Assembly: GCF_025602895.1 (NCBI RefSeq)
Contig: NW_026516483.1
Location: 1 to 33,190 of the forward strand
Reading direction: 5' to 3'
DNA from: Polychytrium aggregatum
Taxonomy: Eukaryota; Chytridiomycota; Chytridiomycetes; Polychytriales
DNA: 33,190 nucleotides
Shown here: in pieces, positions 1,785-27,342 of the stretch
How the letters are laid out: every line of letters starts with the position of its first letter
How positions within the stretch are numbered: position 1 is the stretch's first letter
Position numbers and translations under genes: made by a program
Notes under the pieces: model-generated
What the model was told of the DNA's origin: nothing
What the model saw: the letters and a program-made list of their open reading frames with translations, nothing else
Database searches by the model: none

Positions 1785-2581
1785 TCAACCCCAAATCGGT
1801 GGGGACTCGATCCCAAAGAAGTTCTCGATGGGATTGAAGTCGGGTGAGGCAGGTGGGGTGAAGATCACTGACCATCCTCGGTGCTCGATGCAGTCCAGGA
1901 CAGCCCTTGTCTTGTGCATGCTGACATTGTCCATCACAACCACAGAGTCGTCTGGGAAGGTCGCTCGCTCAAAGAACTCGACCATCGAGTGTGTCTTGAA
2001 TGATGTGGGGATGTACATGCGATGCAGCACACCAGAGTGGTTGATGGCAAATGCAGCCGAGACAGACTTGTGTTCCATGTGATTGCGCTGGCGAAGCGGA
2101 GCACCCTTCGGTGAGTATCCGTAAAGAGGAAAAATGGATCTCCTGATCCCTGTCTCGTCGACAAAAACGAATCGTCGTGGGTCAATGGAGCGGACCTGGT
2201 CCCTGAACTGTGCCACTCGCTCATCCAGTCGCTTGGACTTGTAGAGGTGTGTTGCCCTCTTGTGTGAGAGACCTGCTCGGTGGATGGCAGTGTGGCAGAG
2301 TGAGAGTGATACTTTCCTCTGGAGGATGGACTCGAGCTTGCACCGCAGCACAGGACCAGTCTGGAACGGGTCCTGTTCAATCAGGGTGCGAATGACTGGA
2401 CATGCCTGCTCGAAGAAAGTGGATCTGCGAGCTGTGACTCGGTTGGCTTGTGTCCTCGGTGCCATCGATGGATGGTGCTCTTGGACACACTGAATATGGA
2501 GGCAACCTTGCGCAGGCTATGGATGAGATCGTAGCATCGCAATGCGGCGGTGCGAAAGTCGGATGTGTGGCGAATGGTCAT
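1785..2581 (-). pseudogene. Tc1/mariner-type (IS630 superfamily, DD34E) transposase, frameshifted
   Basis: The N-terminal part (ATG at 2581) has a helix-turn-helix, with VSKSTIHRW as the recognition region. After a frame change near 2450 the catalytic DDE domain follows: first Asp in FVFVDETGI, second in VVMDNVSMHKT, Glu in TPPASPDFNPIENFF. There are 34 residues between the second Asp and the Glu (DD34E). The frame stops shortly after the Glu (stop at 1785), losing the usual last helix. DDE transposases of this class excise and insert DNA at TA dinucleotides. The broken frame and short C-terminus mean this copy is probably inactive. It has the same orientation as the Fanzor-like relic 250 bp away. 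No matching terminal inverted repeat pair was found by eye. Confidence 0.85.
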
Positions 2582-3942: not shown

Positions 3943-5927
3943 CTACTTTTTGGCATAGGTGACCTTGATCTCGTGGGTTTCGGTGATCTTGCAGCCGTGC
4001 AGGCGCACCTTGGCCTCGGTTGCAAAGAACTCGTTCTCGTACTCGACGAATGCAATCGGCTCGCCCTTGCGAGTGAGCATGCGGACTTCCTTGAAGCCAG
4101 GGAATCTGGACAGTGGGAAAGAGCGAGAGATATCGGTGTTAAGTACACGAGGAAACACCGACTGTCCGGCCCATCGGTTGATCGTGAAGGGGCGGCAGGA
4201 CGTGGGTGATTGGCTCCGCATGCTGGGCAAAAGAAGGGCCATCAATTGGCTTGTGACTGCAACGTACTGTTTGAACAGATCGGTGACGATCTCTGAGGTG
4301 GTGCCCTCGGGGAAGTTCTCGACGAATAGCAGACTGTTGGGCGGCAGCTGCTCCTCTGTGTGGCAGCAAGGACATAGTCAGCATATTGTATATAGGCTAG
4401 CGAGCGAGATGACGCTATGCAGCGAGGGAATGCGCCAAGTGCAGGACGCTTGTCGACAATTACCGATGATCTCGGTCTTGATCTTCTGGGCCTCCTTTTC
4501 GCGCTCAACTGGAACACGGCGCCATCATAGGTGTTAGCAATCAAGCAAAGAGCCGAGCTAGTCTGTCGTGCGCTGCAGACCGATGGCTTAACGAGGCCCT
4601 GGTCAGTTGGCTTTCGGCCGGAGAGACGAAGCGATCGTCCGGACACATCCACCCACGTTCACGCAATCGGGAAATACGATGGAGTCCCGGGGTGATGATC
4701 GAGAAAGGATCGAACACACAGGAGCCCGCCACGATTGGACCCGTGGGTAACTTACGTTTCATCTGCTCTCTACGCTGCTTCAGCTCCTCAATACTGCCGC
4801 CTTCTTGCAGGACTGTGGTGTAGTGGGGCGTTCGAGCAAACTGGATATCCTGTGGTCGCCGTACAAACAAAGCCGAGGTTAATCTTGATGGCGACGCGGC
4901 CCCACACAATAATCTTGTGGGCGCCCGACTAAAACGAGCCAAAGATGGGAGATCGCAGCAGATTTCCGTCATCCAGGGCCCGCTCACCATGGGTCTCTGA
5001 AAGAGCGGGAAGGCGTGCAGTTCCTGTTTGGCTTTCTGGGCCGACTCGAGTGTCTTGAAGGTGATGAACGCCTGTCCACGCAGCTTCACGTTCCGTTTGG
5101 CCCGAACCTCCACGATCTCTCCGTACTGGGAAAAGACGGCCTCCAGATTCTTTAGCAGAGCTGGAGACGGCAGCGGATCGACAGGATGGTTGGCGGATTT
5201 GTCCGGCGACGACGTTGTTGGGCGGTGCATGTTTTCGGGCACGCACGATCAGCGCATGTTGGTCCAGTGTAGTGCCCACGGTTGAGTCGGCATGTCCCAG
5301 ATCCGAGCAACGAACGACGATCGAGCGTGTTGCGTCGTGTTGCGTTGTGTTGCGTTGTGTTGCGTTGCGTTGCGTTGTGTTGGAGGAGCAGATCCAGATA
5401 ATCGTGGTTGGCATGTCGGGCATGGTCGGAAAGCGAGCAAGTTGAGGATCGCATCCGATTTGGCACAGGGCAGGCACGATAGAAGGAAAGTGATGACCAT
5501 ATTTGACACATATGGCCGATATGATAGGGTCAGCTGTGGATCATGGATGTTGCGATGCAGCTATGGGCTGCTGGTCATGCAAAGTGTCAAGTCCATCACA
5601 CGGACAGATCTCGAGCGTCTGGGCTGTCGCTCCAGCAGATCTGCCTGGTGTGGAGCCGGAGATACCCATGCGCCTGCCGCAGATCCATACAGCCAACGTA
5701 CTTTTGTGGTTGATGCGCTCATTCAGCCTTCGCACATACAGCGTCTTGTTGGGCTCTGTCGGCGGTGGGGCCATCGGCTCTCGTGGGGCAGGCACCAGTG
5801 GCATCCCGATCGGAGCTGGCATCGGGGCAGGCGGATACATGGCCGGAGCGCCCATCATCGGCGCTGGAGGCACCATCGAAGGGCCGCCGGGGGGAAACGG
5901 CATGGGCGGGGGGCCGGACGGGTTCAT
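3943..5927 (-). CDS. SNRPA/SNRPB2: U1A/U2B''/SNF-type spliceosomal RNA-binding protein
   Basis: Six exons (5702-5927, 4988-5160, 4756-4849, 4464-4508, 4268-4355, 3943-4105) give 262 aa, with all phases consistent. Residues 1-58 are Pro/Met/Gly-rich. RRM1 (about 60-138) has RNP2 LYVRRL and RNP1 RGQAFITF, with the U1A-type loop NERI and KRNVKLRG. A basic helix follows (EELKQRREQMKLEREKEAQ). RRM2 (about 183-262) contains SLLFVENFPEGTT, FPGFKEVRML and ends in KVTYAKK. This two-RRM layout is that of animal U1A and U2B'' and fly SNF, which bind U1 or U2 snRNA stem-loops in the nucleus. The sequence does not tell which snRNA is bound; many lineages have one dual-role protein. The N-terminal extension is longer than in human proteins. 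Confidence 0.92.
5326..5382. repeat. pentanucleotide tract (GTTGC/GTTGT)n in U1A intron 1
   Basis: About 11 imperfect copies of GTTGY sit inside the 541-nt first intron of the minus-strand U1A/U2B'' gene, about 165 nt upstream (in gene direction) of the intron's acceptor. On the transcript they read as an A/C-rich tract (GCAAC/ACAAC). Confidence 0.85.
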
Positions 5928-10405: not shown

Positions 10406-13118
10406 ATGGAGCCCTTCGCAAAGAACACACAGCGCTACGGCGATAATCCGAACCAGCCGGGTTACGAAATGGCCCACATGTCCGAGCTCGAGGCCAGCTA
10501 CAAGCAGCAGGCCCAGCAGGACCCGTCGCTGGCCGATTACAGCACCGAAACGCAGGGCCTGTTTGGCGGGCCGGGCGTCACCCGGCGTCAGTCGCGATTC
10601 ACAACGGCCCCTCGATACATCACTGGGTCCCGTCGCTTCGTCAAGAAGAGAGATCCTCGATTCCTCGTGGTCGTGAAAATCCTCTTCACCTTCCTGGGTG
10701 CCCTCTGCCTGGTGTGCCCCGTCATCGTCGGTGAGAATCCTCGGGATACGGTCGAGCTCCACCCGCTGCCTGCTTGACTCGTCGCTGACGCATGGCTGCT
10801 GGCTGATGTTGCTCTCCTTGTGCACAGGCTATATCTTCCACTTCAACCTGATCAGCACACAGCAGGGCTTCTTCTTCGGCCTCTACGGTGTCTTTGTGAT
10901 CTGCCATTACTTTATCCAGGCGTGCTTTGCCACAGCCAACCGCCTTACCGTCAACCGAAAGGTGCGGAATCGCGATCCCAACTGGAGAGGTCTCGCAACC
11001 GGTGTCCTGGTCGTTGGTTATCGCGAGGACCCTGAACTCTACCGCCAGTGTCTCGAGAGTTGCAAGGCTCTGCAATACAATAACCTCCGCCGTAAGTGAC
11101 TATTGCCTATCACCCGTAGCGGCCTGGCTGGCTGGTTTGCAAACGAGAGCCAGCGGGCTTTGACGGGCCTTGGTTGTGCTTCCGGCACTCTGGCTCATGC
11201 CAGTCTCTGACTCATCCATACTGACAATCGGGCTTTCCTCATGCGCGTTTGATAGGCGTCATGATGGTTGTTGACGGCGACGAACAGGAGGACGAGTACA
11301 TGGGCACAATCTTCCAGGAGGTCTTTGGCCCCGAGGCAACCGTCATCGCCCCAGGCTTCAACCTGGTCGAAGTCGGTCCTGACTCGCGCGAGGCCAAGTG
11401 GCTCTACAATGAACTTGCCCAGGCCAGAGGTCCTATTTGCATCCTGCAGAGTATGTGTTCCTGCCTCGTGTGCTTGCTTTGCTGCCATGTTCTGCGATCT
11501 GGCCCTATCCGCTGCTGCCGATTGCTGGCCGTGGCTGCCACCGCCGTGATCAACCAACTTGCCGGCCACTGACTGTCGTTCGTGCAATCCTCACACTCAC
11601 ACTCACACTCACACTCACACTCACACTCACACTCACACTCACACTCACACTCACACTCACACTCACACTCACACTCGCTCCAGAGCACGGCGGCAAGCGC
11701 CACGCCATGTACTGCGGCTTCCATGTCTTCCTCAACTGCATCCCCACCGACGCCATCATGGTCACCGATTCGGACACCTATCTGGACTGCAACGCCGTCA
11801 AGGAGCTTGCCTTCATGCTCAACGACCCCAAGGTCGGCGCTGCTACCGGCGACGTCCGCATCTGGAACGACGACAACTGGATCTCCTTCCTCTCGGCACT
11901 CCGCTACTGGTTTGCTTTCAATATGGAGCGAGCCTGCCAGTCCTTCCACAAGTGTGTTGGATGTGTCTCTGGACCCCTCGGTATCTACCGAACGGAGATC
12001 ATTCGTGTCATCATCGAACCCTGGGTCAGCCAAAAGTTCCTTGGAATCCAGTGCACCTACGGAGACGATCGTCACTTGTATGTATCAATATCTGGGTGGC
12101 GTGTGTGGTGTCGCCTGCCTGTCGAATACTGATCCCTCTGTCCTGCGATCTCCTCCTTCAGGACCAACCTCACACTGAAGCTTGGCCAGCAGGTCGTCTA
12201 CACTCACTATGCCTGGTGTCTGACCGAAACCCCGACCCAGTTCATCCGATGGACTGTCCAGCAAACCCGCTGGAGCAAGAGTTTCTATCGGGAAGGCCTG
12301 TACAATTCTCGCTGGTTCCACAAGCACAGTATCTGGATGGCGTATGTGTCCTCCTCCGTCCCATCAACGCGCCATGCCTTGTCTATCCACTGCCGGCCTT
12401 GTTCCTTGTTCCTTTGGCTCTCTCGAACTAACGAGGATTCTTTCTGCATCTCAGCTACGAAATGATTTTCCAGACGGTCTATCCCGGCGTGCTGCTCTAT
12501 ATCTTCCTGTACACGCTCTTCTTTGGCACCCTGTTGCGCATGCTCATGTGGGCCAACGTTCTGATCGTCATGGGCTTCCTGAAGGCAACTTATGCCGTCA
12601 TCATTACCAAGAACGTCAAGTATCTCCTGGTCTCCTTCTACGGCTTCCTGTATCTCTGCGGTCTGATGATTGGTAAGGAGTCCACTGCGAGCCCGTGCTG
12701 ACGATGGCGATCCGTATCCAAAGCAGCTGCAAGTGCGAGTCCTCGACTCACACACAGCCCCCCTTGTTTTCGTCCTTGTGCAGCCAAGATCCATGCGGTG
12801 CTCTTCCTCTGGGACAACGGATGGGGAACATCCTCTCGTCTCGGTGCCAAAATGTCCAAGTGGCAGCAGTACGTCTTCCCCTTTGGGTGGAACCTGATCA
12901 TCATCGGAGGCATGAGCTACAACATCACCAAATTCGTGCTTGCCAGCAAGGCCGATGTCAAGCCCATCTGGTACCACGGCTTCGACTTTTGGCACATTCT
13001 CTTCTCTTGCACCCTGGCCGGTGCCATCGTCATCGGACTGATAGGCTATGGCCTCTACAAGACGAACAAGTGGATGATGACCCGCCGTGGCCTCACGGCT
13101 ATCCAGCAAAAGGTCTAG
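10406..13118 (+). CDS. HAS: hyaluronan synthase, animal-type (GT2 family)
   Basis: Seven exons (10406-10730, 10828-11091, 11256-11450, 11684-12077, 12162-12341, 12455-12672, 12784-13118) give 636 aa, with every phase fitting. Two TM helices precede the catalytic domain and about five follow it. Catalytic motifs are intact: VVDGD (res 201-205), GGKR (264-267), the DxD motif in TDSDT (289-293), SGPLG, GDDRHLT (388-394) with the acceptor-base Asp, and QQTRW (426-430). Stretches such as AFNMERACQSF and QQTRWSKSFYREGLYN match vertebrate HAS closely, where chitin synthases have QRRRW. HAS alternates UDP-GlcNAc and UDP-GlcA at the plasma membrane and extrudes the chain. An N-terminal cytosolic extension of about 80 residues is longer than in vertebrates. 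It could make a related GlcNAc polymer (chitin-like oligomers). Confidence is high for the family and moderate for the product. Confidence 0.87.
11590..11676. repeat. (CTCACA)n microsatellite in HAS intron 3
   Basis: About 14.5 perfect copies of a hexamer fill the 3' part of intron 3 (11451-11683), ending 7 nt before the CAG acceptor. The tract therefore takes the place of the polypyrimidine/branch-point region on the transcript. Confidence 0.97.
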
Positions 13119-13738: not shown

Positions 13739-15247
13739 CTAGAACATTCTCAACATGCTCGACCAGTAGAGCCTGATCTTGGCGCCTTGGTGACCGTGCT
13801 CCGCTGCAGAGCTGAAGTGCTCCTGCGCTCTTGTCTGGCTTCTTTCGACGCCCATTCCGGTTCCGTACATCAGTCCCAGGGCATAGTGAGCATCGGTGCT
13901 TCCGCGGCCTGCAGCGTCCATATAGTATTTCGCCGCCCGTTCGAGATTCTTGGGGGTTCCGATTCCATTTTCATAGCAACGACCCACGTCGTATGTTGAC
14001 TTGCAGCCGCCATTCGAGGTCGAAGCCGTCAGGTAGGCCTGGAAGGCTCTTTCGGGCTCCTTGGTAGTGCCGATGCCATATTCGTAGCAGCGAGCGACTT
14101 GGTGGCGGGCTTCGATACTGCCCCGTTCGGCGGCCCTATGGTACGCCTCGAAGGCTTTCGGAAAGTCCTTGCTGGTGCCAAAGGCATTTTCGTAGCAACG
14201 GCCAAGGCTGATGCACGCCTCGATATTTTGCCCATTGTCGGCCTTCTTGTAGCAATCGAACGCCTTGGTGCTGTTTGGAGTGGTTCCGATGCCAACTTCG
14301 TAGCAGCGCCCGAGATGATACATAGCGCCGACACTATTGTTCGAGGCTGCTCGGCTATACCAGTGGAAGGCCATCTCGACGCTCTTGACGCAGCCCAGCT
14401 CAAACTCATAGCAGCGAGCGAGACGAAACTGCGCCTCAGGGTACCCTTGCGCCGCGGCCTTATCGAACCAGGAAAATGCCGCAGCCAGGTTGACGGGAAC
14501 TTCGACTCCGGATTCGTAGTTGCACCCGAGCTTGAATTGGTATTCAGCGCTTCCGGATTCGGCATTGACCTGCCACAGACGGAGGGCCGCCACCTTGGAT
14601 TCTGGGTGTCCTTGGTCAGCAGCCCTGTTGAACCAGTCGAGGGACAACGATTTGTTTGCTTCGACGCCGATTCCTTCTTCGTACAGCCGACCGAGAGCGT
14701 TCTGAGCCAATACATGGCCTTGCTGGGCCGCCCGCTGGTACCAGTAAAATGCCAGGGTCGGATTCTTGCCTACACCCTGTCCGGTTTCGTAGTAGTCGCC
14801 GAGGATGTATTCGGCTTCTTGGTGCCAAAGGTCGGCTGCCGCATGATACCATTTCACGGCCGTCGAAATGTTCTTGAAAGTGCCAATGCCGTTTTCATAG
14901 CATCGGGCCACATGAAAGAGGGCGTCAAAGCTTCCATCTGCAGCTGCTTGTTTGTATAGAGACAAGGCCTCACTCTTGCTCGCCGATATCCAGGTTCCGT
15001 TTTCGTAGCATTGTCCGAGACGGAATTTGGCATCGACGTGAGATTTGCTGGCCGCCGATGAAAACCCTTGAAAAATATACTGCTGCTGTTCCTTCGAGGG
15101 ATTCTCACGCTCGAGGACCAGGGCCAGGTGGTAAGCAGACTCAGGATAGGCGTCGCTAAGCGTACATCGGTAGAGCTCGGATGCTTTGACCAACAGTTGG
15201 GGAGAACCCTGACGGTTCTCGTAGTAGTAGGCCTGCAAGAAGCGCAT
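13739..15247 (-). CDS. Sel1-repeat (SLR) protein, possibly the C-terminal part of the NLR
   Basis: One uninterrupted frame of 502 aa, almost wholly Sel1-like repeats of about 36 residues. Around 12 units are seen, with the signature RCYENGIGT / A..WY..AA..G (for example ARCYENGIGTFKN, GRCYENGIGTPKN). Sel1 repeats are TPR-related helical pairs that form a solenoid for protein-protein contact, often in ER quality control or signalling scaffolds. No signal peptide or catalytic domain is seen. The first repeat begins almost at the ATG (15247). Just upstream, at 15260-15262, is a CAG acceptor that would join in phase (DNQYM...) to a GTAAGC donor at the 3' end of the TIR-NACHT-WD40 gene, so this may be its last exon (13739-15259) and not a separate gene. 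Confidence 0.85.
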   Translation of the reverse strand: MRFLQAYYYENRQGSPQLLVKASELYRCTLSDAYPESAYHLALVLERENPSKEQQQYIFQGFSSAASKSHVDAKFRLGQCYENGTWISASKSEALSLYKQAAADGSFDALFHVARCYENGIGTFKNISTAVKWYHAAADLWHQEAEYILGDYYETGQGVGKNPTLAFYWYQRAAQQGHVLAQNALGRLYEEGIGVEANKSLSLDWFNRAADQGHPESKVAALRLWQVNAESGSAEYQFKLGCNYESGVEVPVNLAAAFSWFDKAAAQGYPEAQFRLARCYEFELGCVKSVEMAFHWYSRAASNNSVGAMYHLGRCYEVGIGTTPNSTKAFDCYKKADNGQNIEACISLGRCYENAFGTSKDFPKAFEAYHRAAERGSIEARHQVARCYEYGIGTTKEPERAFQAYLTASTSNGGCKSTYDVGRCYENGIGTPKNLERAAKYYMDAAGRGSTDAHYALGLMYGTGMGVERSQTRAQEHFSSAAEHGHQGAKIRLYWSSMLRMF

Positions 15248-15318
15248 ATACTGGTTGTCCTGGTATATGGGCTGACAGACACGACGGTGTTGGAAACTTA
15301 GTCATTGGCAGGTCTTGC

Positions 15319-15420
15319 CCACAACCACAACCACAACCACAACCACAACCACAACCACAACCACAACCACAACCACAACCACAACCACAACCACAACCAC
15401 AACCACAACCACAACCACAT
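15319..15420. repeat. (CCACAA)n microsatellite between the NLR and Sel1 frames
   Basis: About 17 near-perfect copies of the hexamer lie between the WD40 frame and the Sel1 frame. They fall inside the possible 172-nt intron 15260-15431. On the minus (coding) strand the unit is TTGTGG. Confidence 0.97.
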
Positions 15421-15422
15421 CT

Positions 15423-18400
15423 CTAGCTTACGTGGATCGCAACAAAATGGCAGGGCGGACTCTTGTTCCACATTCGGAGGGTGCCGAGGGTGCTAGTTTG
15501 GCGGCCCTCCCATCCAAAGTAGGCATGTGGAACCTTCAGCATGTGCATGTCATGCCGGATCCAGTTTGATGACGAGGTATCCACGAGCGACCACCTGTCT
15601 GGATTGAGAGGTGCTTTCCCGGACATCGACGGCGTCTCGAATGAGTTTGAAGCCCGCGTGAATTCTCCCTGCTTCAGCGTCCAATTGATGGTTTGGCCGT
15701 GAGCATCTTTTGAGACGATAGTCTTGCGATCGGATGCGATCCGGACAGATATGACGTTGCTGTCATGTCCCTCAAGTGTCTGCTTCAGTCTGCCGGACAC
15801 CGCATCCCACACCTTCACGGTTTTGTCGTTCGATCCCGAGATAACCATGCGGCTGTCCCTCGATATGCATGTGGATGTGACGATTCCCTTGTGTCCTTCC
15901 AGAGTATACTTGTGCTTGCCCGTAATCGCATCCCATATCATCAGCGTCTCGTCAGCCGATGCAGACACCAGCGTCTCGTCATTCTCAGAAGTCACGAAAG
16001 ACCGGACAACGCCTTGGTGCTGTTGACGCTGTCGTCTGGTTTGGACAGTGTTGCTGTCCCAGATTCGGATGGTGGTATCGTAGGAGCCCGACACCACCGT
16101 ATTTCCGTCCGATGAAATCACAACTGACTTGACGGAATCACTGTGTCCCATAAGAGTGCGGACATGTTGGCCCGCAGCAGCATCCCAGCGCATAACCGAT
16201 CGGTCCTTTGATCCGGAAACTAGAGTGTAGCCATCAGGGATGAAGGTCACGGAGTTAACGGCCTCGGAGTGCCCAGAGAGCGTGGTCTTGAGCTTTCCTG
16301 TGGCGAAATGCCACAATTTGATCGGGCCGCTATCGGAGCCTGACGCAATCAGTTTGCTGTCTCCGGAAACTGCGACAGATATGACGGCATTGTCTTGCTC
16401 TTCCAGGACCCGTGTGCTTCGGCCCGCGGGCAAATCCCAGATCCGAATTGTTCTGTCGAGAGATGCCGACACAATGTACCGCTCGTCCTTGGTCAGCGCA
16501 ACGGCGGTAACAGTGCCTGTGTGTCCCTCGAGAGTGTGCTTCGCCTCTCCACGGGCTGCATCCCATACTTTGATGGTCTTGTCTTTCGAGCCAGAGACAA
16601 TCCACTTTCCACTGTTGGAGATCGCCACCGAAGTCACCCAGCCGGTGTGGCCCTTGAGTGTAGCTTGCAGTCGTCCGTTGATGGTCCAGACTTTGACATC
16701 GTTGTCATTTGAGCCCGACAAGATGACTTTTCCATCAAAGGAAACACAAACCGAACCGACCGAGGCAGTGTGTCCTCGGAGAGTGTTCTTCAGCTGGCCC
16801 GTGATGGCATCCCACACCTTGATCGTGTTGTCGCCCGAGCCCGACACAATCATGCGTCCGTCTGGAGTCAGCGTCACAGAGCTAATGCCGTTTTTACCGC
16901 TAGACATCGTAATATCGCAAGGGTCCCAGGTGGGTGCTGGACCAGCCGTGACCAGGAAAGGGATCTTGTCCTCGAGTCGGTTGGCATATGTCTTGTAGAT
17001 CGCCGTCTCCTTCGGTGTGAATGCATACCCCGAGTTGTACACCTGTGGTGCACTCGCAATGATCGGGTCGGCAAACTCGCGGATGAATCGATACGTGTCC
17101 TTGACCAGTTCCTTTGTGATGTCGTCGACGGTGCTTTTTGGTGCATTAGCGATCACTCCTCGCAGCACAGCCAGTTGGCCGATGATCGACTTGACCACAT
17201 GTGTGAGAGACCCACACTCGAGCCAGAAGAACACATGGGACTTGACGAACCGAGTGAGCACCGCTGCCACATCGGCGAACTCCGTCTGCCCCCACACCGA
17301 ACTCGACTCGGTCGCTCCTTCCAGACACCACACAAAGTGTGTGATCCAGTGGGCGACGCTGTATCGCAGCGACGGTGTGATCTTGGCTGCGACCTTGTCC
17401 TCGAAGTCTGGGATCTTGTCGCGAAAGTCGTAGATATCGCAGATGTTGATCACTGGCTCGTGCGAGAGGATCACACCGAGACATCCCTTGGCAAACACCG
17501 TGTGGAACGAGCTCGACACATGCCATGCTTCATTCTTGGAATTGTCCCCGAGCAGATAGTCCGCCACCGACTTGTGGTTGAACTTGACCTCGGTGTTGGT
17601 GGACTGGCTGTCTCGGAGACCCAATCCATTGGCGCCAAGATCGAGGACCAGACTGAGGCTCTTGAGACACTCGCGAACAGTTTCAATGTCCAATTTGAAT
17701 ATTTCCGCGATACTACGGGGTGTGAGTGTGGACTGGGCGGTGGCGATTGCGGAGATGACGGTTTCAAGGGCGTCTTGGTGCTTCGATTGTCGGTAAATCA
17801 GAGCGAACGTCTTATTGTACAGATCAGGAAGGTTTTGGGAGCCGCCAGTGACTTGCTTGATTTTCTCCATGGTCAGAATGCTCCATCCAACCTCCTTCTC
17901 CAGAGAATTGAGTAGGAGGTTTACTGACACAAATGTCTTGTCTGGGTCATATCGGCTCTGGCTCAAGAACCCCAAATATGAACTCGACTTGTTCAGCATG
18001 ATATCTACCGCTTCTTTCCGCTCCTTCTCGCCGAAACTGAGTGTGTCGATCATCTTGAGTCTGTGGTGGATATACAGCTCGAGGTCTTTGATGTTGTTCT
18101 CGCTTGTGGGGACAATTTCTTTCGTTTGGATACTTGCGAGGGCTTCCTTAATATCAGGCTCAGGCCGAGCGGTTATCAACAGCTTCAGCCACGACTGATG
18201 TGTCCCGATATTCTGCATGTCATTGGAGAGAAGCCCGAGGATCTCGTCTCGGGGATAGCACTCGTCTAAACCATCGATGATGATTATGACGGCCCCCTTT
18301 GGCATATCGTCGCCAACCGCTTGAAGAGGATCAAGGATGATGGTTTTGAATAGCTCGCGAATGTCCATTTTGTCCAAATCGTCCCTGGTCAGGCTTCTTC

Positions 18401-19850
18401 CTCGCGGCCCGTTGCTAGCCCGAGCCCCGGCTTCGCCTTGCACCATGGTAGAAAGTAGTCTTCGACCGATTTCGCCGTACCAAGTACAGAGGCCGTAGGC
18501 AATCGTGGTCAAGAGGTCACGGGGGTTACTCTTGCGAGGATTGTTGTATTTGAGGAAAATCGATGTCACCAGCTGATTGCGGCTTTGGAGGATGTTGGCA
18601 ATCTGTGCAGCAGCAACCGACTTGCCGACGCCGGCAATGGCTTGAATCCACAGAACTTGGTTACCATCATGACCATCCGCCCAATCCAAGACACTATCAA
18701 AGAGCCATTGGCGAGTTCCCGGAACGAACGCCTTCTGTAATTGAGTCAGATCCTCATCAGATTCGATGGGGCGGAGGAGATCGCGGAGTCTTCGGGTTTC
18801 GTCCGCAGTAGACACAATGTAGCCTTTGGGGACGTTTCTCCAATACATAGTGGACACCCGTCGGGCTTTTGAGAGGAGCTCTTTGATCCGCGGCACGAGT
18901 CTAAATGTAGTAACGATGTGTTAGTTATCAAGATGGCTTTATGATACACGTCATGCCCCAGCCGATTATGAGACGTACCGGCGTATAGAGTTACTATCAG
19001 CTGAAAGAAGTGCTTGGAGTTTCATAACTCGGCGAATAGTGTCGTGCATGGTCAACTTTGCCCCGTTGATGGTCGGAGTCAAGGGGTGGCATGGAACCTG
19101 GTCGGGAAAATCCTCAGGCTTCGGATAGTACAACTCGAGAGTCTCCATGTTGTTGGCGTGAATCCTTGTGTACAAGAATATGGGCTGAAGTAACACTGGA
19201 TTGGGAGTTCCTTTACTTGTCTCTATCTGTTGTATCGCCAACTGAATCTGCAGGGAAAATGGTGAAGGTCGAAGTGGTCATGATCTCGGAGATTGAGTGA
19301 GGCGACCGTGGTTGCGCGGGTTGGCCTTGCGGAGAGCTAATACCATCACTTACCTCAAGGAAGAAGTTGTCGTCAGTTTTATGGGCCTTCTTGGATTTCT
19401 CGAGACCTTCTTTCGAAAGCAAGAGCACGATAACTCGGGAGTTCCGGAGCCCATTGATAAACTGACGCTCAAATTCAGTCGCAGTTGGGATGCACGCACG
19501 GTCGAGAAATGTATGAATAGGATCTTCGTTCGCGCTGTGGGCGCTCAAAGCTGAATGGAGCTCTGTAGCAACTTCTTTGTCTGCGCTCACTCGGTAACTA
19601 TTCGCACAGGTGCGGGGTCAAACGTTATTGGAGTCAGGCTGGGGGACGGAGACGAGGTTGGCCAGTATATCGCTTCGAAGATGGCCATACCTGATGAAAA
19701 CGTCGTGTTGATTATACCCCAAGCCACACTTCCAGGTGGAATCTTGAGGTTGAAGCGTGGTAGCTGAGAGACAAAGCAGGCATGTCGAAGAAAACAAAAG
19801 TCAATACTACAGGGCAACAGTGGATTCGATATGCCCTGGCAGAATTGCAT
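15423..19850 (-). CDS. NLR-type receptor: TIR-NACHT-WD40
   Basis: Five exons: 19811-19850, 19691-19763, 19354-19597, 18979-19247, 15423-18900. They give 1367 aa if the stop at 15423 is used. TIR domain about 33-165: HDVFIS|YRVSAD spans a junction, then FLDRACIPTATEFERQF, SRVIVLLLS and NFFLE|IQLAI, where Glu119 aligns with the catalytic Glu of SARM1/plant TIR NADases. NACHT about 290-450: Walker A AIAGVGKS (Lys302) and Walker B IIIIDGLDE (Asp418). About ten WD40 repeats span 875-1280 (SGSxDxTIKVWD). By family knowledge this is a STAND ATPase that oligomerises when the WD40 sensor binds a ligand, bringing TIR domains together for NAD+ cleavage or signalling. The first exon and its 47-nt intron are the least certain part. 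Fungal NLRs usually carry HET, Goodbye-like or phosphorylase N-termini, so TIR is unusual. The protein is probably cytosolic; no signal peptide is seen. Confidence 0.88.
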
Positions 19851-20800
19851 CCCGGATGAGGGAGGACGGCGACTGCTCAAGCGACTGCTCAAGCTACCAA
19901 CGATCTTCGGCCACAAATCAGGACTTGCTCACCTTCGGCGTCTGGAGCTACTGCGATGGGCATGTTTGGGCGATGGGCGAGCGATGTCAGAGGATGGATC
20001 TCCCCCAGCAGCTTCTGTCGCCTCGTCTTTTTGTAGTCTCGCTCGCCGTCGCCGCCTTTCGATTCTGGCACTGCAGCGGCTGGTCGGTATGACGGCGGCC
20101 GGTCGGCACCCTTTCCGCTTTTGGCTTTCCCAGCCACCGCGCGCGTACAGCAGCGAATTGCGGTATCAGTCACATGAGCCATCCTGGTCAGCTGCGCTGT
20201 CTGCCGCATCCACGAGGCAAAATTCCACCCAGAATGTCTTTGAAACCGCCGCATGCCCCGCCTTGCTAACGCGGCAGTTTCAGAGTTGCATACCCACCAA
20301 GGTATCATTGTCCTCGGCTTGGAGGTGGGGGCGAGGGAAAGACAGCCGCCAGGCAAAGACATCGGGCCGCTATCTGGTCTCTGAAAGCCCTTGGCACGAT
20401 GACGATGTTGCCCGCGGCAACGGACAAGCTGCTGGATCGTGGATGGATGAACGTGCTCAGGATCCAGAGAAAAATGGAACGCCTGGCTCAAAACAGGATG
20501 TCCCGTTTCGGCTTGTGGATACATCGACGAGTGTATTTCCGATGGATTCCCGATGCACTATCCTGGAGGGTATCCAAAAGCGCTTCGCTGGCTCTGAGCG
20601 GAGCCGGTGCACACCACGCTGCTGCGGGAATCGAGGCATGGCTCAACAAATCGAGCGGCAGAGCGGCGAGCATGCCGTCGAGATGATGTATTTCACAGAG
20701 ATTGTGGCGGCAGAGTCGCAGATATGAGCCTTGGCGTGGGCTGGAGAGAACGCTACGCCAACCGTGACAGGGATATTGGGTATGGCTTCGCGCTGGCGAA
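19851..20800. other. intergenic: NLR promoter side
   Basis: About 950 bp separate the NLR start (-) from the stop of the SH3 membrane protein gene (-). Open frames on both strands (for example 19889-20524 -) have no family likeness or splice support. No promoter element, repeat or RNA gene could be named. Confidence 0.45.
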
Positions 20801-23714: not shown

Positions 23715-24255
23715 ATGAGCGCCGCAAAGACCCTCCAGAAGCTCCTCAGCGAGAACACCATCGTGGTAGGGCAGAGCGACCCAGCAGCATCGAGGAACAT
23801 TTGCTATCCTGGCTGTCCAGGCTCAACTGACGGATTTCCTCCCGCCTCGCCGCTGGTCCAACTCAGGTCATCTCCAAGAGCTGGTGCCCCTACTGCAGAG
23901 CCGCCAAGCAGCGCCTGCAGCAACTCAACCTCAACTTCCTTGCCGTCGAGATCGACAGCGACCCCGAGGGTCTCCAGGCCTACATCCGCCAAACCTACAA
24001 CCACTCGACCGTCCCCGCCATCTTTATCCACGCCAAGCTGCTTGGTAAGCGCCGATGCTCTGGTTTGCTCTCGGCCTCGGATCTTTTGAGGCCGTTGATA
24101 CTATCCGATCAACTCTGGTACCGTTTGGCAGTCAAAGTCCCCGTTCTGTACATCTCACCCCGCCGCCCTGGTTATTGCTCGGTATCATCCCAGGCGGCAA
24201 CAGCGACCTCCAGGCCCACCCCAACATTGTCGGCCTCGTCAACCAGACTGATTAG
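23715..24255 (+). CDS. GRX: dithiol glutaredoxin (CPYC class)
   Basis: Three exons (23715-23765, 23867-24044, 24194-24255) give 96 aa, the usual size of a class I glutaredoxin. The active site is SWCPYC (Cys24, Cys27). The cis-proline loop is STVPAIF (Pro67) and the glutathione-binding GGNSDL motif starts at 77. It reduces protein disulfides and glutathione-mixed disulfides, using glutathione as the electron donor. There is no targeting sequence, so it should be cytosolic. Helix 1 (MSAAKTLQKLLSENTIVV) is normal. The last exon lacks the long C-terminal helix extension but ends close to the usual place. A canonical AATAAA lies 40 bp after the stop (24296). Confidence 0.93.
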
Positions 24256-24295
24256 CCGCACCCTAGAGCTATCGGCATCAGCTCTATAGCACCGA

Positions 24296-24462: not shown

Positions 24463-27342
24463 TTACAAATCGTCGAGGGAATCGGCCACCTCCTCAGGGG
24501 TCTTCCCCTTGGTTTCCGGCATGAGTAGCTGGGTGAAGATGGCAAAGGCAAGGAGGGCCATCGAGAAGAACAGGAACACGTAGTAGCCGGCTGTGTTGCG
24601 GCCAGGGCCCGACAGCGAGACAAGTTAGCATCGAATCGGTGAAAAGTCCGAGCGGCAGCAAGGGGCTTTTGCAAACCCAAGTCTTTCGTACCAATGGCAA
24701 TCGCGGCAGGCAAAAAGAAGGCCAGGATGAGGTTCGAGGTCCAGTTGAGGGCGGTGCAGATCGACGATGCGGAGCCGATCGCGGCTTGGGGCAGGAGCTC
24801 AGGGACAATCAACCTGCCATCGACGCAATACCACAGGTGGTGATCAAGCAAGCAGTCAAGCCGCATGTCAGTCAAGATGGACGGAGCAGCCACGGCTCAG
24901 CCACGAACAAATGCGCTGGACTCGTCGAAGCGACCTTTCGAGGCAGCAGCAATAGCAGCAGTAGCAGTAGCAGTAGCGACGCCCGCCCATTTCAGTTGCT
25001 CACTCACCAGGGAATCGCACCCAGGCCCATCGAAAAGCCGCCGACAAAGCACATCAAGAAGACGGCCATGAGCAGCGGCGAAAGATCAAACTGGAAGGCG
25101 ATCACGATGCCAAAGGCAAACAGCGACATGGACAGAAGAGACAGAAGCAGCATGTACTTCCTGCCCATGCGGTCGATGACCATGGTCGAAGCCAGCGTTC
25201 CCACCAGATTGATGACGCTGACAAAAGTGGTGAGGCGAATCGCTGTCTCGGGGTCGAAGCTTTGCTGGAAGATGGTCGTCGAGTAGTATATGGCTGCGTT
25301 GATGCCGCTGAATTGCTGGGCCACTTGCAGGCCAAAGGCCACGGCCAGCGGGCGGACCAAAGAGGGCGTCTGGAAGAGCTCGACAGTCGACAGGGGAACG
25401 ATCGACTCTTGCGAGATCAAGGGAGAGTGTGGCTCGAGCGAGCCGCTGGAGCCAACGTCGAACTCATCGTCGAGTTGGTTGAAGACGGCGAGCAGCTCCG
25501 TGAGCTCATCGTCGACGTCGACGCAACCGCGGAGTGTTTGAAGGGCTTTCCTGGCTCCGATTCGGTCGCCCTGGGACACAAGCCATCTTGAAGCGACCGC
25601 ATGCGAAGGAGGGTCGGTACATCAGTCGCAATTTGTCTTTGCCAAGCTCACTTGGCTCCCCGACACGTTGCCACAAGGCTTTCCGGTCTTACCTGGGGCT
25701 CTCGACGCAGTATCTCAGCAACCAGAGCTGAATGATGCACGGGACTGCACATCAAGCGGGGTGACGTCGCAGGGTTGGGACAGAAGCAAGTGCCCGCCGG
25801 AGCGGTAAGAGGTCAGCGCAGCCGTGCGAGAGAGCGGGGATAAAACATTGTTAGCAATGATCGCCCTCGCATTAATATCAAGGGCCGCGACAGGCAGTAC
25901 ATACCCGCCGTGAACATGAACAGTATTCTCCAGGTTGCCGGACGGGAAAGTGAGTAGCCCATGATCTGGGAGACCAAGACACCGAGAACGATCGACAGCT
26001 GGTTCACGCCGCCAAAGAGTCCTCGCCGAGCAGCCGGACTGATTTCGGAAATGTAGAGCGGCAGCACCACCGTTCCTGAGTTCCGTAGTTCGGGCGAGAG
26101 AGACCAAGGGAGAAGGGCCAGGGCGTGGGAACCGATTCAGTATTGCAACGAACAGGTTCCAGTCTGCGGCCAGACGACTCCCCCTCTCCCTCTCGAACGA
26201 GAGCATGAAGCCAAGGCCGTATCCAAGAGACATCACAGCCAGTCGACCTGGAGCACCGTCGCTTTCCCTCCGCCGAGCCTCACCTGTGCCGGCACCGATG
26301 CCGATGAACAAGCGGCCGAGACATAGGACCGCAAAACTGGTGCCGAACGACAAGAGCGCTGCACCCAGCAGGAAATGGATGTTGGTGTAGAGTAGCGAGC
26401 TACGCCGTCCCAGCATCGAGGCTAGATGACCACCCGAGAGGCCGCCAAAGACGCCGCCTGTGGATCAAACCAAGCAACGACGGAAGGGGGGGGAGGAGGG
26501 ATCCGATCAGTATCAACACCAAAAGTGCTTGTGTTGAGGCTCACAGATCTCGGATTCTGCAGCCGGTCACGGATCAGTGGCGGATGCATGCATTTCATGT
26601 GCGGGCTTGCCCTACCCAGCAGAAAGATCGACACAAAGGCACCCCACTGCGACCCCCCATCGTCCAGTGCAGTCCAGTGCAGTCCAGTCCGAAAGTTGGC
26701 AGTGGAAGGAGAAGAAGAAGAAAAGAGTCCCAGAGTGGTTTGGTGGCGACCGACAGCCAAGGCGAGAGAGCATCCAAAATCAGTATCGCACCCTCCGGAA
26801 GTGCATGCCAACGATCAGCGGGCCAGAAGTGGGAGGGCAGAGATTGGGAGGTTGCATGGTAGTGATGGGCGCTGCTTGCTCGTACCTGCCAGTCACTCAT
26901 GGGCACGCAGTCTCGAGGCCAGCGCTCATCCACGATGCTGCAGTTGGTCTGGGAAGCCCCAGAGCCCAAAGAGCATCGCGACGATGAAGGACGGAAGGCC
27001 AGAGGTGACGGGCGATATGAGAAATGGAGCAATGTCAGCAGAAGAGCCTGCCGTCGACATGCCCAAGGGAGAGAAGGAAGAGGAAGATGGGGAGGGGAAC
27101 GTAGTTGATCAAAGCAGCAGCATGCGAGAAGATGCAGAGAAATGCGGGGAGCGACGCTGGAGGAGGCGGATAGAATGCAAGACGACATGCAGAAATGATG
27201 CAGAAATGATGCAGTGAGCGTATCTGACCATGGCCTCTCGTGGTTGGTTGATGACGCCGCTATGGTAGCCGAACTGCAAGGCCGAGATCGAAGCCACCGC
27301 GACGCAGGTGATGAGATAGAAGGACGTTGGAGGCGAGGACAT
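24463..27342 (-). CDS. hexose transporter, MFS sugar porter (GLUT/HXT family)
   Basis: Nine exons (27229-27342, 26886-26948, 26616-26646, 26284-26457, 25905-26075, 25693-25744, 25008-25586, 24692-24813, 24463-24590) give 477 aa. All phases agree. Sugar-porter signatures in order: FGYHSGVINQP in TM1, GHLASMLGRR in loop 2-3, GRLFIGIGAGTG, ESPRWL after TM6, QQFSGINAAIYYST in TM7, DRMGRK in loop 8-9, and PETKGKTPEEV at the end. The 12-TM plan is complete. QLSGIN/QFSGIN-type TM7 points to glucose or another hexose, by facilitated diffusion or proton symport at the plasma membrane. Exon 3 is only 31 nt. The loop between TM6 and TM7 is acidic. A 14-bp repeat array sits about 60-130 bp upstream of the ATG. 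Confidence 0.92.
24935..24978. repeat. AGC/AGT trinucleotide tract in a hexose transporter intron
   Basis: About 14 near-perfect AGC/AGT/AAT triplets in the intron 24814-25007, outside coding sequence. Confidence 0.75.

Follow-up and report, generated by a model that had tools for sequence, protein, structure and literature searches.

What does a chytrid-like fungus do with a gene that sets a TIR domain in front of a NACHT switch and a WD40 array, and how far does that gene extend? We address these questions for a minus-strand gene in the window, by which we mean the whole stretch of 33,190 nucleotides that was analysed (Polychytrium aggregatum, contig NW_026516483.1). At 33 kb the window makes up the whole of one contig (C203) in a 64.7 Mb genome of 418 contigs, and its receptor gene has a near-identical copy near 778-785 kb of contig C375, perhaps the other haplotype. 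We consider it probable, on balance, that the gene encodes an intracellular NLR-type receptor in which a nucleotide switch would drive a TIR domain that cleaves nicotinamide adenine dinucleotide (NAD+), and in which a diversifying sensor would recognise non-self or parasites. The sequence basis for this reading is the domain architecture, the intact switch motifs, a glutamate at the catalytic position, the expansion of the family and the variability of its sensors. A preliminary description had suggested that the receptor may serve immunity or allorecognition by means of TIR chemistry. The expansion, the variable sensors and the kept glutamate make this the best reading, while the function itself is something we infer.

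The predicted splice model runs from 19963 to 13739 and joins six exons into a protein of 1872 residues with the order TIR-NACHT-WD40-Sel1; introns 1-5 are GT-AG in every case. For comparison, 30 loci were read in detail, namely the 30 best-scoring of 72 NACHT matches in the genome (the window gene, its copy on C375 and 28 others). The features of the gene are as follows:

13739-19963, minus strand: whole receptor gene, predicted from the splice model and conserved junctions
19933-19963, minus strand: exon 1, start codon, 31 nt, ending in phase 1; reads into the TIR frame, with a same-length exon in paralogue L015
19691-19763, minus strand: exon 2, first TIR strand (HDVFIS); a similar exon in most of the 30 loci
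19354-19597, minus strand: exon 3, TIR core, last codon (19356-19354) encoding Glu116; TIR_2 match, exon present in 30/30 loci
18979-19247, minus strand: exon 4, end of the TIR and linker; matched in 30/30 loci (L065 partly)
15432-18900, minus strand: exon 5, NACHT, helical region, WD40 array and cap; from Pfam and the sequence
15272-15431, minus strand: intron 5, with a (TTGTGG)n hexamer array; 160 bases, 130 in the C375 copy
13739-15271, minus strand: exon 6, about ten Sel1 repeats; PF08238 and a conserved junction
19185-19701, minus strand: TIR domain, residues 32-137, split by two introns; PF13676 34.9 bits, E 2.4e-8
18165-18719, minus strand: NACHT (NPHP3_N, PF24883), residues 267-451; 89.5 bits in the protein scan, 92.0 bits in the genome search
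18618-18632, minus strand: Walker A, GVGKS, residues 296-300; from the sequence
18261-18287, minus strand: Walker B, IIIIDGLDE, residues 411-419; from the sequence
17553-17582, minus strand: FNHKSVADYL, candidate winged-helix motif of TLP1-like NACHT; from the sequence, motif class after the accessible part of PMC12258605
15654-16928, minus strand: WD40 array of about ten blades, seven of which form a closed propeller and the rest part of another; PF00400 291.7 bits, 9 stretches

The preliminary description had placed a complete receptor of five exons at 15423-19850. Its in-phase splicing of the TIR exons (19763-19691 and 19597-19354) to the NACHT was reproduced by the splice model, the Walker A and B motifs are intact as it stated, and its estimate of about ten WD40 repeats agrees with both the PF00400 match and a structure model. 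The gene is larger than was thought, as six exons are predicted, the Sel1 exon had been overlooked and the start was misplaced. A start at ATG 19850 was rejected, the frame from there never joining the TIR frame. The 31-nt exon from ATG 19963 enters the TIR frame through a consensus donor, and the first exon of the closest paralogue (L015, contig C358) is likewise 31 nt and ends in the same phase. An end of the gene at 15423 was also rejected, since the Val-Ser-stop read there is a splice donor and the apparent stop lies within intron 5. The C375 copy differs at 14/5619 coding bases in 12 codons (7 synonymous, 5 not), and both copies are open over 1872 codons with no internal stops.

The protein has the NLR or NACHT STAND layout of an effector, a NACHT with Walker A and B, and C-terminal repeats. 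The TIR_2 score comes from a scan of the N-terminal 271 residues and passes the Pfam cut-off of 28, so that the TIR profile check proposed for these exons turned out positive; PF01582 reached 14.4 bits on the same piece, under its cut-off of 21.3. In a scan of the whole protein the TIR was not among the best 25 of 59 Pfam rows; nor were NB-ARC and LRR, those rows being filled by NPHP3_N and WD40. The window gene was also absent from the matches listed in a six-frame genome search with PF13676, as would be expected with a TIR domain split by introns. No HET row was seen in the scan of the N-terminal piece, which matches TIR_2 instead, and a genome search with PF06985 (HET) gave 0 matches, its controls being equally silent. 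The N-NACHT (NAIP-like) motif FhHxxhQE[YF]hxA was not found in the window gene. FNHKSVADYL stands in its place and points to a T-NACHT by the motif classes given in the available portion of PMC12258605. For the WD40 part with its cap (508 residues), an AlphaFold model made with 12 sequences has a mean predicted local distance difference test score of 83 and a predicted template-modelling score of 0.59, and its 40 strands would make about ten blades. By Foldseek, about seven of the modelled blades fit closed 7-blade propellers (template-modelling score up to 0.98 by target length), and the whole model aligns no more than loosely with the two propellers of Apaf-1. The Sel1 exon scores 300.7 bits with PF08238 over 10 stretches.

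The preliminary description had also called the host a probable zoosporic fungus, and we agree. IFT57 and Fungal_trans both exceed their cut-offs in the genome, and among the NACHT-region matches that carry an organism name, four Chytriomyces proteins (P0004-P0007) come first at 42-44% identity; three JGI proteins rank higher. A zoosporic, chytrid-like fungus is thus well supported by sequence content.

A paralogue search, which had likewise been proposed, makes clear that the gene is no lone case. NPHP3_N has 106 matches in the genome, 90 of them strong rows. Neighbourhoods were counted with these 90/106 rows (16 weaker or partial rows were dropped), with 93 TIR exon-3 rows among the matches listed of 208 (exon-4 rows left out) and with 77 Sel1 rows, one per cluster, among the matches listed of 155. 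On this basis at least 81/90 strong NACHT rows are preceded, on their own strand and at no more than 2.5 kb, by TIR exon 3. Of the nine others, three show a PF13676 match 0-2.5 kb upstream, and 12/93 TIR exon-3 rows have no NACHT row behind them. Since many rows form near-identical pairs on different contigs, which were paired by eye, we estimate about 60-70 distinct receptor loci rather than 90. In all 30 loci read in detail a TIR core exon stands upstream of the NACHT with a GT donor behind it, and an AG acceptor precedes it in 29. The exception is L065 (C334:1122736-1127442), which also has an early stop in its sensor. TIR-like matches in open frames away from NACHT rows were seen on C386 (L001) and C46 (L006) and at C13:217847 and C101:313236, and are possibly partner or standalone TIR proteins.

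Many paralogues carry a further piece in front of the TIR. SAM-like pieces with E 0.01 or better occur upstream of the TIR in 20/28 other loci; some loci end too near the TIR to judge. A profile made from eight such pieces, four from L055, L053, L052 and L022 of this genome and the other four from Chytriomyces, matched the Caskin SAM with E 1.4e-10 vs 0.097 for the SARM1 SAM. Pfam did not recognise the SAM of L055 and left that of P0004 under its cut-off, so that the SAM call rests on the upstream piece matches together with the profile match to the Caskin SAM. For the window gene no SAM rose above chance, either when the Chytriomyces pieces were compared with the whole window or when the paralogue pieces were compared with the 2.5 kb upstream of 19933.

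What might the TIR do? A profile built from six TIRs of this genome and three Chytriomyces TIRs found the SARM1 TIR as its best solved structure (E 4.4e-5), and the invariant Glu, Glu116 in the window gene, falls on the Glu within HKEIVTAL of SARM1, a residue that we take to be the catalytic E642. Because of this match and this alignment, NAD+ cleavage by the receptor TIR is plausible. The Glu is kept in 29/30 loci and in three aligned Chytriomyces homologues. PADLOC gave weak TIR matches only (best E 1.6e-5), and we therefore assign the gene to no bacterial defence family. When the TIR region was used as the query, protein searches returned nothing beyond the query itself; as they also missed the Chytriomyces proteins found via the NACHT region, they are uninformative on distribution. 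SAM is an oligomerisation module, and its presence before the TIR in many paralogues, together with TIR_2 matches elsewhere in the genome away from NACHT rows, would suit a receptor of the same build in which the TIR does not cleave NAD+ but acts as a scaffold or adaptor to bring in other TIR or SAM proteins. We regard this as unlikely given the retention of the Glu just described. Moreover, the sole locus that lost it, L066, has lost its Walker A too. This degenerate copy (C57:271719-276422) has Gln in place of the Glu; its Walker A is broken and its frame stops early.

A second alternative concerns the other end of the protein: the Sel1 open reading frame (ORF) could be a separate gene, with the receptor ending at 15423. 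The Sel1 exon has a Met nine residues from its beginning, several of the paralogues (L070, L073) lack Sel1, and at L078 the Sel1 ORF begins about 2.3 kb past the end of the WD40 frame. Nevertheless, intron 5 has a donor CAC/GTAAGC at 15431 and an acceptor GTCTGTCAG/CCC at 15271, making a phase 0 GT-AG junction from the WD40 exon to the Sel1 exon that is equally placed in the window gene, L070, L073, L075 and L077. The donor at this junction is GTAAGT or GTGAGT in L070, L073 and L075 and GTACGC in L077, the intron measures 60-139 bases in the paralogues, and the following exon begins in phase 0, with Pro-Ile-Tyr first in the window gene, L070 and L073. In L077 the first 95 residues of the Sel1 exon hold no Met. 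Across the genome, Sel1 lies 1.5-6 kb downstream on the same strand at at least 14/90 NACHT rows (about nine distinct loci), vs control counts, among the matches listed, of 0 downstream on the opposite strand, 2 upstream on the same strand and 0 upstream on the opposite strand. We therefore hold a separate Sel1 gene to be rather improbable. The exon after the junction is a Sel1 array in the window gene and in L075, the two being 42% identical over 463 residues, and Sel1 ORFs stand directly behind the WD40 frame in L077 and in a pair of loci on C42 and C201. As L070 and L073 have a short last exon only, Sel1 is an optional extension of the receptor.

The two halves of the receptors differ in how far they vary. 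At seven loci the DNA of TIR exon 3 is 100% identical and that of the NACHT 96-98%, whereas the 1.5 kb of sensor DNA behind the NACHT is 48-79% identical, or 54-79% when L048 and L058, with their early-stopping or short sensor frames, are set aside. HNWD repeats of Podospora anserina are classed by positions of high dN/dS (the ratio of non-synonymous to synonymous substitution rates), namely 10, 11, 12, 14, 30, 32 and 39, according to the accessible part of PMC12222747. In 160 repeats from 23/30 loci (7 near-identical loci were dropped, and all positions were scored), these positions take entropy ranks 8, 3, 1, 4, 2, 5 and 9 of 42, and none of 100,000 random draws of seven positions equalled the ranking of this set. 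In four chosen, more homogenised paralogues the pooled dN/dS at the seven positions is 1.34 vs 0.21 elsewhere (L054 1.60, L061 2.00, L043 0.73, L055 1.15), and the best paralogue has a mean WD40 repeat identity of 75%. The HNWD diversifying positions thus recur in the receptor family, and weakly in the window gene alone. The Sel1 array also changes length, since the near-identical copies on C42 (L072) and C201 (L076) have Sel1 ORFs of 1207 vs 568 residues; the arrays look strongly homogenised, and this is a second fast-changing repeat array.

Several points weigh against our reading. In most WD40 proteins the loop positions vary, and the entropy ranks compare positions within the receptor family alone. 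Of two genes bootstrapped, a dN/dS above 1 is backed in L061 (0.3% of resamples fall to 0 or lower) and not in L054 (10%); L043 lies below 1. In the window gene the mean repeat identity is just 42% and the repeat contrast is weak (0.83 vs 0.51, uncorrected). Several copies (L045, L048, L065, L066) are broken, so that part of the family may be decaying. Lastly, the repeat numbering (GH at 8, 9) was fitted by us, provisionally, from the pairs 7, 9, 25 and 27 of PMC2873952 and a HET-E repeat rather than taken from the published repeat definition.

The same data bear on two further alternatives. NLR and TIR gene expression shifts during symbiosis and fruiting, as PMC10197012 reports, which would suit a receptor that serves development or symbiosis instead of defence or the recognition of non-self; we find this quite improbable, as a diversified sensor on a uniform effector half better fits arms-race recognition. 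The early stops or broken motifs of L045, L048, L065 and L066 and a DDE_3 transposase within the window might suggest that these genes were amplified recently, are now decaying and retain little function. This is very improbable when both copies of the window gene are open throughout, four paralogues have a repeat dN/dS of about 0.2 away from the seven positions, and Chytriomyces homologues exist at 42-44% identity.

We return, then, to a switch-driven TIR receptor. In such a receptor the WD40 blades and the Sel1 array would bind or guard a ligand, and the ligand would relieve autoinhibition, allowing the NACHT to swap ADP for ATP and oligomerise. Oligomerisation would bring the N-terminal TIRs together and turn on NAD+ cleavage, and the loss of NAD or a cyclic-ADP-ribose-type product would stop or kill the cell. 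A repertoire with a uniform effector half and a diversified sensor is what would be expected for recognition of parasites or non-self. Judged from sequence, a role as an NAD-cleaving cell-death or defence receptor is likely. It is a more tentative proposal, which we put a little short of even, that early-diverging zoosporic fungi as a group hold a large diversifying (SAM-)TIR-NACHT-WD40(-Sel1) repertoire that combines an HNWD-like sensing surface with SARM1-like killing by NAD+ cleavage. If true, a third major repertoire of TIR-NLRs would join those of plants and bacteria.

Elsewhere in the window we observed a DDE_3 transposase fragment (1785-2516, minus strand, 77.8 bits), an RRM exon (3943-5248, minus strand), a family-2 glycosyltransferase or chitin-synthase-like exon (11413-12132, plus strand; PF13641 28.8 bits, PF03142 26.4 bits and just under cut-off), a glutaredoxin exon (23831-24289, plus strand) and a sugar transporter exon (25004-25621, minus strand).

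A 2014 survey did not find NLRs in chytrids (PMC4986451), and another study counts from one NLR upward in Chytridiomycota species (PMC12258605). One clause of PMC9815663 reports TIR in NLRs of plants, bacteria and Chytridiomycota, and PMC11291939 describes Mortierellomycota NLRs shared with bacterial endosymbionts. In searches aimed at the present design, with subscription journals mostly outside the scope, we found among the papers listed, judged by title, opening of the abstract or passages, no account of SAM-TIR-NACHT-WD40 or Sel1-bearing fungal NLRs, of such an expansion or of such sensor diversification. What appears to be new is a TIR-NACHT-WD40 receptor with optional Sel1 within a large diversifying repertoire, its presumed function being read from sequence. 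One chytrid-like genome with 90 strong NACHT rows, at least 81 of them TIR-linked, alters the picture of few or no chytrid NLRs. Moreover, it offers a fungus in which genuine TIR chemistry, not HET, can be tested as a death effector, and raises the question of whether the diversifying WD40 sensor predates Dikarya or has two origins.

How does the receptor compare with known systems? The nearest relatives are the hypothetical proteins P0004-P0007 of Chytriomyces hyalinus and Chytriomyces sp. MP71, for which we found no published description. They share the TIR-NACHT-WD40 order, with 42-44% identity in the NACHT region and 37-39% in three aligned TIRs, where the Glu is kept. Unlike the window gene they have a SAM-like stretch before the TIR, and no Sel1 was seen in the sequences of P0004-P0007 or in the best 25 Pfam rows of P0004-P0006. 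The annotated P0004 (Chytriomyces hyalinus) ends in a second SAM-TIR behind its WD40 array, perhaps because annotation has fused two tandem genes. SARM1, an animal SAM-TIR NAD hydrolase, supplies the best solved TIR match with the Glu aligned, and SAM stands beside the TIR in many paralogues as it does there. However, the ARM-SAM-SAM-TIR order of SARM1 was not found, NACHT-WD40 following the TIR in the window gene; the ARM family is not among the best 25 of 59 Pfam rows of the window protein, and the SAM profile of the paralogues is nearer Caskin than SARM1. Plant TIR-NB-ARC-LRR receptors share the plan of TIR effector, NTPase switch and repeat sensor, whereas in the window gene NACHT and WD40/Sel1 appear to stand in place of NB-ARC and LRR. 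The HNWD proteins of Podospora anserina (HET-E, HET-D, HET-R) are alike in having an N-terminal TIR-clan effector, a NACHT and a WD40 sensor, and the same repeat positions diversify in the chytrid family under our fitted numbering (PMC2873952 and PMC12222747, in their accessible parts). They differ in their effector, which is HET there and a true TIR in the window gene, and in their repeats, which are 80-100% identical there vs 42% in the window gene and at most 75% on average in the measured paralogues. Finally, the window gene adds a Sel1 extension to the HNWD plan, and many of its paralogues add a SAM.

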